This document shows positions 6,063 to 18,040 of a stretch of DNA of 20,741 bases, piece by piece. Where the stretch lies: the IMG/VR virus record IMGVR_UViG_3300010300_000156, positions 1 to 20,741 of that record; one strand, given 5' to 3'. Within the stretch, counting starts at the first letter, position 1; every line of letters begins with the position of its first letter. Under the pieces are notes generated by a model. That model searched no databases, was not told the origin of the DNA, and saw only the letters and a program-made list of their open reading frames with translations. The stretch comes from a virus. Position numbers and translations under genes: made by a program.

Positions 6063-6298
6063 ATTAACTCCGCATTTATCCACTTATCCAATGCTTGTTC
6101 CCATTGATTATATGTGGCTTTGTTATTGTTATACTTAATCCAAACCTCATCAAACTCTTCTGTTAGTCTGTTACGCATATGTCTTATATGTCTTTCTTTA
6201 CTTTGATTCCTGTATTTCTCATTACTTATAGCTGAGGTTTTATTCAAAAAGATTTTCTTTAAATTGGGTTTCTTCAAAATACTCATAATACCTACCAT
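6059..6298 (-). CDS. Small basic helical protein, 79 aa or less
   Basis: The product is rich in Lys, Arg and Asn (KYRNQSKERHIRHMRNRLTE) followed by EEFDEVWIKYNNNKATYNQW, predicted helical and probably nucleic-acid-binding; no family recognised. The ATG at 6298 makes it overlap the end of the primase-helicase gene by 59 bases in another frame, which is long for this genome; an ATG at 6286 or a later alternative start is possible. Its stop overlaps the metallophosphoesterase start as ATGA. Confidence 0.5.
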   Translation of the reverse strand: MVGIMSILKKPNLKKIFLNKTSAISNEKYRNQSKERHIRHMRNRLTEEFDEVWIKYNNNKATYNQWEQALDKWINAELI

Positions 6299-7922
6299 TA
6301 GTCAAATTGTATTTTAATTTTGCAGGATTACCTTGATTAGGTTTACCATTCTTATACTGGAATCTAATCTTATGAACATGAATACCTGCATAATCATCTT
6401 CATCTGTTTTATGTCTATGTACAGTTATAGCATTGTCACACTTATTAAACCAGTTGGCTGATCCGCTTATATCATACGGGGTAGGCACAACAGGCTTACG
6501 ATTAACATCATTCTCCATTTTTCGTGGATGTGCTACTAACCATATATGTAATTCATTTACTTTAGCAAATGCACTTAGCTGTGAAAGAACTCTTGATATA
6601 TATAAAGTCTCATTCTCTCCATCTCCGTATTTATGTTCAATCGTATTCCACGGATCTATTATAAGCCCATTTAAACCAAATCTATAATTAAGTATCTTAG
6701 CTTGTTCCATTATAGATTCAATGGTTACAGAGTCCTCTTGCGTACCTATAAACTTTATATGGTCATTGAGTATCTTCATAGAGCTTCGTGCTGTCTCTTC
6801 ACTTAGTTTATCTTCTCCCCAAAATGCTTTACCTGAGAATTTACCTACTAGTTTAAGTAAGTGATGTTCTACTGGAAAGTTTTCTGCTGAGAATATACCG
6901 AATCTCCAACCATAGGATTGAATCATGTTGATCATTAATGCATCCATCCACTCTGATTTACCCATATTAGGCACACCTGTAACCACTGTAACCTCTGATG
7001 GGCTAACTAAATAATGCGGATCTACAGCACTCCAACCTGTAGATAAACCTTTGTGTTGAGGCTTTAATAATAAATCAATAGCATCATCTTCAATATCTTG
7101 AACCATTATAACACCATCAATAGGATAAGGATGTGCATTAGATACTATGTTTTGTACTTCATCCTCTCCATGTTTTATAAGTACATCATTCATATCTTTA
7201 CACCCATCAGGATATGTAACTCTAAAACACTTCTCCCTACCTATCCTTCTTGATAACTCATCCCTGAGAAATTTACCTGCACTATCCGAATCAGTACATA
7301 ATATAATTGTATCTGCACTCATTAAATACTCTTCTGCTGACAATAGATAGCTGAACTTCTTATCTGTTGGATTAGAACCACTTGCGGGTGCACCATCAGG
7401 TACTGATACAACATTCATAAAGCCCGCTTGTACCAGTGATAAAGCATCCATCTCTCCTTCGGTAATTATAATAGTCTCCATACCTTTCATAGAATCAAAT
7501 CTATAAAAACACTTCTCAGCATTCTTAGATTGTTTAAATCTTTTATCTGCTGTCCGTGATTTAATATTAACTACTTCCTGATCTTTATAAAATGGAAAAT
7601 GTATCCATCGGTTATCATACCCTATTTTCTCTGCATCAACAACTGCTCTAGTTATACACCTATCCTCAAACCATTTGTAAACTTCTTCAGGTAACTCTGT
7701 TTTAGGTGGATCAGGTTTTTCTATTGGTTGAATTGTTAAGTCCTTAACTTTTTCTTTTAATGATCCTTTCCAACCACAATGATGACAATGCCATACACCT
7801 TCATCTACATTTACTGATAGGCATGTATCGTATGATTTTTTCCTACCCCTACTGCATTGTGGACAAGTTGTTTTTACTTGCCCACTGCCATTAACAAATA
7901 TTCCGTTCTCCTCAAAGGTCAT
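6240..7922 (-). CDS. Bifunctional DNA primase-helicase (T7 gp4 / Twinkle type)
   Basis: A 560-aa protein with three parts in order. A zinc finger: C20-x2-C23 and C46-x2-C49. A TOPRIM primase core: ITEGEMDALS (E155) and CTDSDSAGK (D211, D213). A RecA-like hexameric helicase: Walker A GVPNMGKS (316-323), Walker B GLIIDPWN (419-426), a WLVAHPRK segment with H465, and the YDISGSANW stretch. The length matches T7 gp4 (566 aa). It would unwind the replication fork and lay primers. It follows the initiator gene with an ATGA overlap (7919-7922), so initiator and helicase are made together. No DNA polymerase gene was found, so it presumably works with host polymerase. All key residues are present. Confidence 0.92.
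   Translation of the reverse strand: MTFEENGIFVNGSGQVKTTCPQCSRGRKKSYDTCLSVNVDEGVWHCHHCGWKGSLKEKVKDLTIQPIEKPDPPKTELPEEVYKWFEDRCITRAVVDAEKIGYDNRWIHFPFYKDQEVVNIKSRTADKRFKQSKNAEKCFYRFDSMKGMETIIITEGEMDALSLVQAGFMNVVSVPDGAPASGSNPTDKKFSYLLSAEEYLMSADTIILCTDSDSAGKFLRDELSRRIGREKCFRVTYPDGCKDMNDVLIKHGEDEVQNIVSNAHPYPIDGVIMVQDIEDDAIDLLLKPQHKGLSTGWSAVDPHYLVSPSEVTVVTGVPNMGKSEWMDALMINMIQSYGWRFGIFSAENFPVEHHLLKLVGKFSGKAFWGEDKLSEETARSSMKILNDHIKFIGTQEDSVTIESIMEQAKILNYRFGLNGLIIDPWNTIEHKYGDGENETLYISRVLSQLSAFAKVNELHIWLVAHPRKMENDVNRKPVVPTPYDISGSANWFNKCDNAITVHRHKTDEDDYAGIHVHKIRFQYKNGKPNQGNPAKLKYNLTNGRYYEYFEETQFKENLFE
7735..7748 (-). repeat. Palindrome-family copy inside the primase-helicase gene
   Basis: GTTAAG and CTTAAC arms with a TC spacer followed by TTTTT on the plus strand. 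It encodes KVKDLT, almost the same as the copy in the SSB-like gene (KVKGLT). It lies in the linker between the zinc finger and the TOPRIM domain. Confidence 0.4.
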
Positions 7923-8701
7923 TGTAATTGACTCCTGTAATTAGTTAATACATTATTCCACTTGGTAAAACCATTCTCTGATTTCTTTCTTAAGCTCCTT
8001 AATGATAAGATATTTCTATGCCAAAATTTATCCTGCAATGCCCAAGATACAACTCTTTTAATTAACTTATAATCTACATTATCTAACCTAATTAGATCGT
8101 AAATAATGTTTATTGATTGGTTAATTAAATTATTATCATCTTTCCAATCAGGATACAAATGTGGGAACCTACCACTCTGTATAGTATAAAAACTATTTAC
8201 AACTTCCTTAATATATTTTAATTGCTCTGAGTTTATAGATTTATTAATAGGGGTATTTAATGCCTGTTTATTGGTATGAGATATATCTATATTATTATTA
8301 TATAATAATGTTTTACCTGTGGTATTAGGGGTAGGCATACCCTCTTCCTCGTGAAATTTGTCTACCCCATCAACTGTAGGTAAATGGGTATGACTTGTAA
8401 TTGGGTTTACCCCATTACCTGTGGGTATAGGGGTAATGTATCTTTTTATAAACCTCTGAGTACCTTCTTCAAGTTCAATTTCAACATGAATATAACCATT
8501 ATCCCTAAGTTCTTTTAGGCATCTTGATACATATACTTTTGATATATCCATTATTTTACTAAAGTATATATTTCTTTTTACGCATATACCATCATCTTCT
8601 AAACTTGCTGTTATTTCACAAAATAACAATTTAGATAATGGTTTTAGATTCTTGTTGTGTCTTATATTAGTTGGCAATATGCCAAAATAACCATTAATCA
8701 T
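7919..8701 (-). CDS. Replication initiator, lambda O-like (winged helix plus helicase-recruitment domain)
   Basis: A 260-aa protein in two domains. Residues 1-90 (from GYFGILPTNIRHNKNLKPLS, then ISKVYVSRCLKELRDNGYI) form a winged helix-turn-helix of the kind at the N-terminus of phage replication proteins. Residues 90-150 are a Pro/Thr/Gly/Asn-rich linker. Residues 158-245 are helical, with DKFWHRNILSLRSLRKK, a pattern of phage initiator and helicase-loader C-termini. The linker's DNA contains repeated TACCCC/GGGGTA elements and an AT-rich tract, as the lambda origin lies inside gene O. The gene is directly followed by the primase-helicase (ATGA overlap). A GGAGGAAAA site precedes the ATG. 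Function is inferred from architecture and context. Confidence 0.7.
   Translation of the reverse strand: MINGYFGILPTNIRHNKNLKPLSKLLFCEITASLEDDGICVKRNIYFSKIMDISKVYVSRCLKELRDNGYIHVEIELEEGTQRFIKRYITPIPTGNGVNPITSHTHLPTVDGVDKFHEEEGMPTPNTTGKTLLYNNNIDISHTNKQALNTPINKSINSEQLKYIKEVVNSFYTIQSGRFPHLYPDWKDDNNLINQSINIIYDLIRLDNVDYKLIKRVVSWALQDKFWHRNILSLRSLRKKSENGFTKWNNVLTNYRSQLQ
8275..8312. other. AT-rich tract, candidate duplex-unwinding element
   Basis: Between about 8278 and 8310 the sequence is almost purely A/T (runs of ATT and TATAATAAT). It lies immediately downstream, in gene sense, of the iteron cluster, and is still inside the initiator's coding frame (encoding LLYNNNIDI). Position and composition are those of an origin melting region. 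Confidence 0.5.
8313..8435. repeat. Iteron cluster inside the initiator gene, candidate replication origin
   Basis: Three related elements: 8408-8435 and 8363-8390 are both 28 bp and agree at 23 positions. 8313-8333 matches the last 21 bp of the first at 18 positions. Each full copy starts TACCCCAT, has CTGT in the middle and ends GGGTA, so each is itself an imperfect inverted repeat. An additional GGGGTA-GGCA-TACCC dyad lies at 8329-8342. G/C-rich words of this kind are conspicuous in such an AT-rich genome, and the encoded protein is a low-complexity linker. Confidence 0.6.
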
Positions 8702-11225: not shown

Positions 11226-12056
11226 TTAGTGTATTGGTATTACTATTTCAAAGTCTTTAAATGTCGTATTATTACCGCATGCATGACCTATTGAAGTACA
11301 TGATCCGCACAAGCTCGGACATACAAAAACTTTTTTCTTAAATTGCTTTCGTATTGATTTTTTAGATCCTTTGACCGCTGTAAAATTACCCCTGACAAAA
11401 GATTCCTTTTGTAATATTGGTTTAAGATAATCAAACCTACCGCCATTAGATAAATTTAAAACGTAATTAGACGGAAAATTAAAACCCGTATTAATAAGCT
11501 CCCTAAATACGTTTAATGACTTACTGTATCCATAGGCATTAACCCGCTTATTATTTTTTAATAATTGCATCCAGTTTTTTAAATGATCTGTATTATTAAA
11601 ATCACCGTCAACGTATAGCCTAAAATCTATTTTATTTGAATGTTTGAACTTATTACTGTTGATCATTTTTTCAAGTTCTGTTTCAATTATATTAAAATCA
11701 TCCATTAAAATCGTGTTTTGTAATTGACCAAAAAATACCGCTGGATATCTCCAGCCTTTTAATGAATAACAATAATCCAAACAAGCACCCGCACCCACGC
11801 AATTAATTACAGGTAGATTTGAAAAACTTAAAAACGGTAATTTTGAATTGCCAACTTTAAAAACATTGTAAGGTAGATCCCCGCCAACAGTTAACCAGTT
11901 TATGAATTTTTCTATATGATAGCCGTTTGAATTTGGTTTGTAAATTGCACCCTTTACAAGTAAGCTATCTAATAATTTAATTAACTCTATTTGGTTGTTG
12001 TGTAATCTAGCAATTTTAAATTTAGTTTGTTGATCCAGTTTTATATCTGTATACAT
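11226..12056 (-). CDS. Gp88-like phage protein with two cysteine clusters
   Basis: A 276-aa product. It has an N-terminal cluster C86-x5-C92-x3-C96 (GAGACLDYCYSLKGWRYP), a central IDFRLYVDGDFNNTDHLKNW, and a C-terminal cluster C246-x3-C250-x2-C253-x6-C260. The C-x-DYCY-x-LKG followed later by FR-x-x-x-x-GDF is the pattern I recall for the phage Gene product 88 family, whose function is unknown. The cysteines suggest an Fe-S cluster or zinc. The last cluster has CX3CX2C spacing like radical SAM enzymes, but at the wrong end of the protein, so I do not claim that activity. The ATG at 12056 is chosen over a TTG at 12071 because GGAGG sits eight bases before it. It has its own promoter candidate. 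Confidence 0.55.
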   Translation of the reverse strand: MYTDIKLDQQTKFKIARLHNNQIELIKLLDSLLVKGAIYKPNSNGYHIEKFINWLTVGGDLPYNVFKVGNSKLPFLSFSNLPVINCVGAGACLDYCYSLKGWRYPAVFFGQLQNTILMDDFNIIETELEKMINSNKFKHSNKIDFRLYVDGDFNNTDHLKNWMQLLKNNKRVNAYGYSKSLNVFRELINTGFNFPSNYVLNLSNGGRFDYLKPILQKESFVRGNFTAVKGSKKSIRKQFKKKVFVCPSLCGSCTSIGHACGNNTTFKDFEIVIPIH

Positions 12057-12085
12057 TTTTAATTCCTCCAAATAATGTATTTTAA

Positions 12086-15466: not shown

Positions 15467-16730
15467 CTACAGGATTTTCTTGCTCATTAATACTTCTATT
15501 CTCGTCTATAATAGCTTGTGCTTGACTTACTGTCAGGTCTTTGTTATCACGAACCATTATCTTTGCTCTAGTAATAAGATTATTCTTAATATCAAATTCA
15601 TCTTTTAATATCTGATCTTGGATAGTCTTTGGATACTCTACTTCTTCAAAGTCTACACCAAATTCTTCTGGCAAACTAACACCGTTATAACCAGCAATAG
15701 TTCTTTCAACATCATAGAATTGCTTTTCATACATTCTCCAAAGAGCAATGTCATCATAATAATCTTCTTTTCTCTCCATATCTTTAATCATAAGAGAAAT
15801 ACCACTAGGAACTTCACCACCAGATTCTGCCCAAGTAATCCACAAATGATTATTGGTAGCAACTAATTCCATTTGAAACTTAATATTGTTTATTGCCTCA
15901 TCGATATTTCCTTGTGGGCTAGTAATATTGTAAGCCCCTTCTTCTCCCATATCGAGGATAGTATTAGAACCAGCTCTTAACATGCTTTGGTCAGCATTTA
16001 AACCTGTTACCCACGGTTGTCCAAACATATTAAACCTCATACCAAGATTCATTTCAGTTAAGGCAATATTAACTTGCTCATTGCAGTTTACAATATCAGA
16101 TGCTCCTTCAACAAAAAATGAGTCTATTTGATCTTCCCTATGGGTAAATACAAAAGGAATTATACCATATGGATTTGCAGACTCAGACATCATATTGCCA
16201 TCTTCATCCATAACTCCGTACTTTTCAGCATCCCAATACTCCCACTGTAAAGCCTCTGTATTAGACAAATCAGATGTGCTATTCAATAAAGGATAGACAA
16301 TAGCATTTGGCTCAAAAGGATTATCACCAAAGTATGTTTCAAAATAATAAATAGGTCTATAATCAAAAACTCCATCCATCCAATAAACTCTATTAGCAAC
16401 AGTTCCTAATAGCCTAGTCATTCTCTCAGAGTGTTTCATACGAACATCTTTAGTAGGAATAAGCTCATTATACTTCTCAGAGTTTCCTCCTGCTGTTCTT
16501 TTAGCACCTAAACTGTATATTCTGCTAATTTTATTAATAAATTTTCTTGTAAAGTTTGTAAGAGTTGGGGGGATTTCACTAAAAGCATCGCCATTAAAAT
16601 AATGGTCAATGTATTGTTCCGTAGAAACACCAGAGTAATAATCTAAATGTTTTCTTATCTCCTTCCGTCTTTGATGAGCCATCATTAGTTTTGTTTCTAA
16701 TAATTTTTCTTTTATCATCTGTTTTGTCAT
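15444..16730 (-). CDS. Portal protein (SPP1 gp6-like)
   Basis: A 428-aa protein with the features of SPP1 gp6-type portals: N-terminal HLDYYSG and a FINKISRIYSLG segment, a YWDAEKYGVMDEDG turn, PYGIIPFVFTH near residue 188, and the long helix region NEQVNIALTEMNLGMRF with FGQPWVTG. Portals form the ring through which DNA enters the capsid. The C-terminal 70 residues are charged and helical. Its start overlaps the large terminase stop by 4 bases (ATGA), so terminase and portal are co-translated. Length is in the usual range. Confidence 0.85.
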   Translation of the reverse strand: MTKQMIKEKLLETKLMMAHQRRKEIRKHLDYYSGVSTEQYIDHYFNGDAFSEIPPTLTNFTRKFINKISRIYSLGAKRTAGGNSEKYNELIPTKDVRMKHSERMTRLLGTVANRVYWMDGVFDYRPIYYFETYFGDNPFEPNAIVYPLLNSTSDLSNTEALQWEYWDAEKYGVMDEDGNMMSESANPYGIIPFVFTHREDQIDSFFVEGASDIVNCNEQVNIALTEMNLGMRFNMFGQPWVTGLNADQSMLRAGSNTILDMGEEGAYNITSPQGNIDEAINNIKFQMELVATNNHLWITWAESGGEVPSGISLMIKDMERKEDYYDDIALWRMYEKQFYDVERTIAGYNGVSLPEEFGVDFEEVEYPKTIQDQILKDEFDIKNNLITRAKIMVRDNKDLTVSQAQAIIDENRSINEQENPVDEIKDNN

Positions 16731-18040
16731 CTTTGTATCCTTTTCATTTCCTTATTTCTCATTGGGAATCTGTTAATTATAAAATACCTAAAAGCATCGT
16801 TTCCGTGATCGTGGAAACCATCCTTTAATGGTTCTTCTTTAATTGGTTTACCATCTTGACTTTCGGGGTATCTATACTCCTCAAAGTCCTCTATCATTTC
16901 AGTACATCTTCTGTCTACATGTACTCTTCTTAATCCATCAGCACTTTCAAAGAATCCTCTGGTATGTGCTATACTTGCTACTAAATTTCTACTTACCCTA
17001 TCTCTTGCAGATAGTATTCTAATACCACTTCTTCTAAATATCTCCATATCCCCAGCTCCACTTTGTCCTTGCACATTACTTCCAGCAGGATCACCGTAGT
17101 ATGAAAGAATAGGATAACCTTTAGTTTTTATCATTTTAATTAAATCTTCGGTTTTGATATTTTGTTTGTGAAGTATCGTATCAAATATTCTAATATGTTC
17201 TGTACCTCCATCATATTGTGTCTGAAGAAATAAAACAGCAGGTTGCCTGTATCCAAAGTCAATACTACAATAAGTAGGCAAATTAGGATCGTACTTATAA
17301 TCGCCAACATCTAAATCTCTATTAAAATCCCAAACTTTACCCTCAAATACAGAAAACTCTGCACCAAATTCTTGTCCAAACAACTCTCTTGACATGTTTC
17401 TTTTTCTCTCTATTATAGCAGGATCTTCGATTCCCAATGGAAACTCATGCTCATTTACCCAAGATGGAGCAGTATGACTTTCCCACATAGGATCGTCTCT
17501 ACCTAATTTAAACAAATCATATATCCAATTTCTACCTTCTGGGGTAGTTATAAAAATAACTTTTCCTTTTCTACCTGCTACAGTAGGAGATAAATACATA
17601 TCCCAAATCTTTTTATTCATCTTAGCAACCTCATCAATTACGAGTAGGTCAAGACCTTCTCCCACAAGACTTGATGGATTATCTGCTGACATACCTTCAA
17701 CTACTGTACCCCATTTAAAACGAATGTACATATCTTTTTCTGATGCTTTATCAACATCTTCTGGATGTCCAATAACCATGCGTTGCCAAATCTCACGAAA
17801 TATTAATCTCGCTTTCTTGTAAGACATCCCAACAACCCATATACGCTTATTTGGTTGAGATGCTACATAAGTAGCCTCCATAGCACTAGCCCAAGTCTTA
17901 CCAAACCTTCTCCCACATACTACGACTTGAAATCTCGCATCCTGTTTTTCTGGGAAATGTAGTGCTACTTGCCCTTGATGTGGTTTGTATCCTAAGTAAT
18001 CAAACCATTTTTTCTTAAATTCGTAATTTTTTTCTTGCAT
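16727..18040 (-). CDS. Terminase large subunit (packaging ATPase and nuclease)
   Basis: A 437-aa protein. The ATPase domain has Walker A CGRRFGKT (42-49), Walker B LLVIDE (132-137) and the coupling motif FITTPEG (163-169). The RNase H-like nuclease domain has SIDFGY (D261), YGDPAG (D317) and HDHGNDAFRY (D411, D415). All key residues are present and the length is usual. It drives DNA into the prohead and cuts the packaged genome. It is first in a leftward operon with a strong extended -10 promoter just upstream, diverging from the capsid operon. The ATG at 18040 lacks a clear ribosome site, so it may be translated from a short leader. Confidence 0.93.
   Translation of the reverse strand: MQEKNYEFKKKWFDYLGYKPHQGQVALHFPEKQDARFQVVVCGRRFGKTWASAMEATYVASQPNKRIWVVGMSYKKARLIFREIWQRMVIGHPEDVDKASEKDMYIRFKWGTVVEGMSADNPSSLVGEGLDLLVIDEVAKMNKKIWDMYLSPTVAGRKGKVIFITTPEGRNWIYDLFKLGRDDPMWESHTAPSWVNEHEFPLGIEDPAIIERKRNMSRELFGQEFGAEFSVFEGKVWDFNRDLDVGDYKYDPNLPTYCSIDFGYRQPAVLFLQTQYDGGTEHIRIFDTILHKQNIKTEDLIKMIKTKGYPILSYYGDPAGSNVQGQSGAGDMEIFRRSGIRILSARDRVSRNLVASIAHTRGFFESADGLRRVHVDRRCTEMIEDFEEYRYPESQDGKPIKEEPLKDGFHDHGNDAFRYFIINRFPMRNKEMKRIQR

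Follow-up and report, generated by a model that had tools for sequence, protein, structure and literature searches.

The locus raises the question of whether a short array of repeated DNA inside a phage initiator gene is the replication origin of that phage and, if so, how a helicase is brought to it. The window, meaning the whole stretch of DNA that was analysed, is an entire IMG/VR virus record of 20741 bp. The following features are central to the question.

6240..7922, minus strand: T7-type primase-helicase, 560 aa, with zinc-finger cysteines, TOPRIM and DnaB_C; its start codon overlaps the end of the initiator gene
7919..8701, minus strand: initiator gene, 260 aa, assigned from its domain layout and from comparison with lambda O and Lactobacillus PMBT4
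8408..8435, no strand assigned: iteron 1, a 28-bp dyad TACCCC-N16-GGGGTA with 12/12 dyad positions
8363..8390, no strand assigned: iteron 2, a 28-bp dyad with 11/12 dyad positions, starting 45 bp from iteron 1
8313..8333, no strand assigned: iteron 3, a partial copy of 21 bp with the left half-site TACCCC and the shared interior, lacking the right half-site, beside the A/T tract
8280..8314, no strand assigned: A/T tract, the least stable 35 bp and proposed unwinding element, encoding LLYNNNIDIS

Read on the coding strand, the two dyads come first (iteron 1, TACCCCTATACCCACAGGTAATGGGGTA; iteron 2, TACCCATTTACCTACAGTTGATGGGGTA), followed by the left half-site with the same interior and then the A/T tract. 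A sequence-only reading of this DNA had reported two 28-bp repeats, a third copy of 21 bp and an A/T tract beyond them, and each is present as described. Iterons 1 and 2 are identical at 25 of 31 positions (8405-8435 against 8360-8390), the partial copy at 8313-8333 is identical at 18 of 21, and the tract has the lowest stability of any 35 bp among all 20741 bp of the record. Outside the origin stretch the window has one isolated site scoring at least 10/12, a 10/12 match at 1262-1289. It sits within the gene at 3-1319 and is probably a chance match.

The dyads had been placed in DNA coding for a linker between a winged helix and a helical C-terminus, and domain and disorder prediction agree. 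The N-terminal domain is a winged helix (aa ~5-92), the linker spans aa 95-148 with disorder predicted at residues 95-136 and 140-148, and the C-terminus (residues 157-259) is helical and lambda O-like. Within it, residues 203-240 match lambda O residues 227-264 (hhalign, 38 columns, 34% identity, E=1.3e-5, probability 80.5). All 29 aligned initiator members match the PHROG 'O-like' family phrog_391, assigning them an O-type C-terminal domain, and the nearest cultured matches of this domain include annotated replication protein O genes beside phage replicative helicases. The N-domain is homologous to that of the Lactobacillus PMBT4 initiator (hhalign probability 99.4, E=6.2e-22) and is also of the type found in Staphylococcus phage initiators (HTH_36); the Pfam HTH_36 match of the window initiator is weak, at 19.7 bits under a cut-off of 25. 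Pfam gave no Phage_rep_O (PF04492) match in the window initiator, whilst lambda O itself matches at 5.7e-36. Searched against solved structures, the initiator sequence returned weak matches alone (E>=0.037). Foldseek against PDB returned none at E<=0.001; the top structures, 4pql, 5kbj and 4pt7, carry initiator or Rep-DNA labels but fall outside that limit. Judged by its sequence matches, the initiator is a chimera by family, with an HTH_36-type N-domain and an O-like C-domain. The description 'lambda-like' consequently holds for the layout and the C-terminal tail (residues 203-240) but not for the DNA-binding domain, which is of HTH_36 type with no Phage_rep_O match.

Viral contigs were scanned for the initiator and the primase-helicase; the primase-helicase was matched at 44 loci, and 34 initiator genes were recovered. 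These genes comprise 29 distinct DNA sequences and 21 representatives at <90% protein identity, mostly 35-65% identical pairwise. The initiator is directly upstream of the primase-helicase in most loci; 186-610 bp separate the two in L008, L019, L020, L021, L024 and L042, the genes otherwise touching or overlapping. Homologues keeping the linker protein and losing the DNA repeats had been named as the case that would speak against an origin. The comparison went against that case: the dyad layout, its spacing and the A/T tract are kept at the same gene position in 21/21 representatives, whilst the linker protein varies. The first dyad lies at gene nt 266-281 in all 21 and the second 43-45 bp further on. 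In L008 the second-best scan match falls elsewhere, but alignment shows a second site at 45 bp. Duplex stability within the gene is lowest in a 35-bp stretch lying at nt 386-450 in 21/21, and dyads of at least 10/12 are nearly absent outside the origin stretch. In lambda, used as a control, the lowest-stability measure in O recovers the unwinding region, falling at nt 438-473, just past the four annotated O iterons (nt 348-432).

The three window copies share one reading frame, so their peptides repeat too. The repeats might thus be a feature of the protein, with linker motifs recurring for reasons of their own and the likeness in DNA following from them. For each linker, 1000 synonymous versions were generated from the codon usage of its own phage and scored by their two best dyads. 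The best window recoding scored 21 against the observed 23 (p=0.001). Among the representatives, the observed pair gave p<=0.003 in 18 genes, 0.005 in L019, 0.02 in L028 and 0.106 in L008. GGG makes up 12% of glycine codons genome-wide and 46% in the linkers, and codons in the A/T tract favour A/T, and hence lower stability, beyond usage-based recodings (p<=0.03 in 15/21). The DNA words are also kept where the peptides change. A one-base shift puts the right half-site of dyad 2 out of frame in L009, L022 and L023, preserving the word and altering the peptide. The interior copies of L014 are inverted relative to each other, so no peptide repeat accounts for the agreement within that gene. The recoding, frame-shift and inverted-copy results do not fit selection on the peptide and speak against a peptide repeat or chance as the source of the dyads, leaving a protein-level cause scarcely credible. 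The proposal that the repeated linker peptides are dictated by DNA is supported, as recoding loses the dyads and homologues keep the DNA words with changed peptides. On the best explanation, constraint on the DNA largely dictates the linker peptide, which acts as a flexible tether.

The whole group shares the outer TACCCC/GGGGTA words, while the 16 bp between them vary from phage to phage. Interiors from one gene resemble each other more closely than interiors from different genes do (permutation p=0.0002). Interior similarity tracks how alike the N-domains are (Mantel r=0.24, p=0.007) and shows no correlation with C-domain identity (Mantel r=-0.02, p=0.55). The recognition-helix motif KDTAS is accompanied by CA[AG]AA in iteron 1 in 7/7 cases against 0/14 of the others; once N-domains are thinned to <70% identity, the contrast is 4/4 against 0/10 (p=0.001). 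The initiator of L010 is a mosaic: its N-domain is shared with L018 (93%), whereas its C-domain goes with those of L006 (73%) and of the window (69%), which indicates that N-domain and origin move as one unit. The KDTAS link could reflect such block inheritance; functional matching is also consistent with it.

Binding sites of this kind might instead form an operator with which the initiator represses or times its own operon, or a partition- or packaging-type site, the origin lying elsewhere. Most winged-helix proteins in this fold class regulate transcription, and intragenic binding sites can block transcription. An adjoining least-stable tract in 21/21 genes is however expected of an origin and not of an operator. 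The PHROGs annotation of the family is replication initiation in 29/29 members, related HTH_36 initiators adjoin helicase loaders or helicases, and the terminase gene is far off (16727-18040), arguing against a packaging site. We consider an operator, partition or packaging-type site improbable. The region at 13.3-14.0 kb, a possible rival start, holds A/T-rich repeats only and no iteron-like array. GC skew was rejected as an origin signal: it follows gene direction (+0.14 to +0.20 in plus-coding and -0.20 to -0.22 in minus-coding regions of three records) and thus gives no independent signal. That the feature is a phage replication origin inside the linker-coding part of the initiator gene, whole mechanism included, is in our judgement highly probable.

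We infer a theta-type origin bound by the product of its own gene, which would recruit the phage primase-helicase. Initiator dimers would use their N-terminal winged helices to bind the 28-bp dyads, the conserved TACCCC edges serving as a family mark and the variable interior as the phage-specific recognition element. The two dyads, about four helical turns apart, and the third half-site would assemble a nucleoprotein complex which, by analogy with lambda O, may help to melt the adjoining 35-bp A/T tract. The lambda O-like C-domain would then bring in the phage primase-helicase, probably without a separate loader, and a host polymerase would finish synthesis, the latter being proposed because no phage polymerase was found.

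The helicase neighbour combines TOPRIM and a DnaB_C-type helicase in a single chain, as in T7 gp4 (phrog_239, E=7.9e-96). One DnaB_C match per record was found in 16/16 phage records, in primase-helicase-sized open frames of 556-589 aa. Lambda P (PF06992) was found in 0/16 of these records and was detected in lambda as a control. An IstB/DnaC-like loader and a family-A polymerase, the families searched for, had no match in the 16 records, several of which are 33-37.5 kb with completeness not established. No second long replication-type ORF was recognised by eye in two near-37-kb records. The domain matches and the search of 16 records uphold the suggested pairing with a T7-type primase-helicase in place of a recognisable loader. 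The early region of the window also encodes a GP88 family protein (11226-12071; PF17338, E=1.7e-19). Scanned bacterial genome contigs gave distant primase-helicases alone (six long matches, 29-36% identity) and no host or prophage of the group. In four of these contigs (L064, L066, L067 and L069) a DnaD-type-like open frame of ~225-390 codons lies just upstream of the distant primase-helicase.

Whether the C-domain contacts this enzyme directly bears on the last steps of the mechanism. The helicases of the window and L018 are 98% identical whilst their C-domains are only 46% identical, suggesting either that the contact uses few conserved residues or that a host factor is involved. The origin could thus be real and the C-domain recruit a host helicase loader or primase, with the phage primase-helicase loading itself later; in pSK41, the C-domain of Rep binds host DnaG (PMC5703833). 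By contrast, O-type C-domains elsewhere adjoin phage helicases, and C-domain divergence here correlates with the helicase half (r=0.36, p=0.001), although the genes are adjacent and linkage could be the cause. Tight co-evolution of initiator and helicase was rejected, as this correlation is merely moderate and confounded by linkage. We regard recruitment of a host factor as unlikely, if a serious contender. As to direct recruitment, we propose that the O-type C-domain delivers the fused T7-type primase-helicase to the intragenic iteron origin with neither loader nor phage polymerase, forming a two-gene self-contained module in which N-domain and origin are exchanged as a specificity cassette. 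The chances of this full proposal appear to us about even.

Several known systems resemble parts of this arrangement. As here, ori-lambda lies in the middle of its initiator gene O, with an A/T tract beyond its palindromic iterons, and the C-terminal motif is homologous (PMC7466680). Lambda however has four 18-19-bp iterons 20-24 bp apart, against two 28-bp dyads 45 bp apart and a partial copy here. It also uses P and host DnaB, whereas the present phages have no P, their own primase-helicase and a DNA-binding domain other than Phage_rep_O. The HTH_36 initiators of Staphylococcus, Lactobacillus and Fusobacterium phages share the homologous winged-helix N-domain. Five cultured relatives (Staphylococcus, Lactobacillus, Fusobacterium and Flavonifractor phages) carry repeated iteron-like words in the same gene stretch; in most of them the words have CCCC edges and an A/T tract follows. 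The cultured HTH_36 initiators differ in having other C-terminal domains (e.g. Phg_2220_C) and in preceding a DnaC-like/IstB-like protein or a DnaB-like helicase. ORF20 of S. aureus 80alpha and gene 38 of SPP1 are likewise initiator genes reported to embed origins (PMC5499656).

In plasmids, the rep gene of pSK41 embeds its origin and an HTH_36-type chimera, pPR9, replicates (PMC5703833). The winged-helix N-domain of RepA_N initiators such as that of pSK41 binds sites midway along the gene that encodes it; in pSK41/pPR9 the origin-encoded linker is dispensable and N-domain and origin are swapped as a module (PMC5703833). These RepA_N systems differ in being plasmids that rely on host replication proteins, and the window initiator has no sequence match to solved RepA_N-type chains.

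The nearest cultured primase-helicases are those of the Bacteroidetes phages PJN03, elemoA, JQ and phi10:1. There a DnaD/DUF6291-like gene of 223-286 aa lies directly upstream of the TOPRIM primase-helicase, but these genes belong to unrelated N-terminal families (DUF6291 in two) and have other repeats. These phages pair other initiator families with a primase-helicase, so the gene pairing itself is not unique. The DUF6291-type gene of PJN03 (L054:3267-3938) has 39-bp repeats in three copies and then an A/T-rich linker, and that of elemoA (L057:3237-3965) has 20-bp repeats and then an A/T-rich linker. Both repeat-bearing genes are likely to contain unannotated intragenic origins.

Intragenic origins are already known from lambda, SPP1, 80alpha and pSK41; the novelty here lies in the chimera of HTH_36 domain and O tail and in its primase-helicase partner. 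In the part of the literature covered, no paper was found describing the initiator/primase-helicase pairing as an origin module. Using sequence only, the analysis predicts an origin and its initiator for a little-studied set of uncultured phages. With ~14 diverged initiator/iteron pairs, the recognition rule of the DNA-binding domain becomes readable. The results also suggest where to seek further origins, namely in other phages where a DnaD/DUF6291-like gene is partnered by a TOPRIM primase-helicase. If the tail does recruit the primase-helicase directly, these phages would have a minimal, loader-free way of starting a replication fork.
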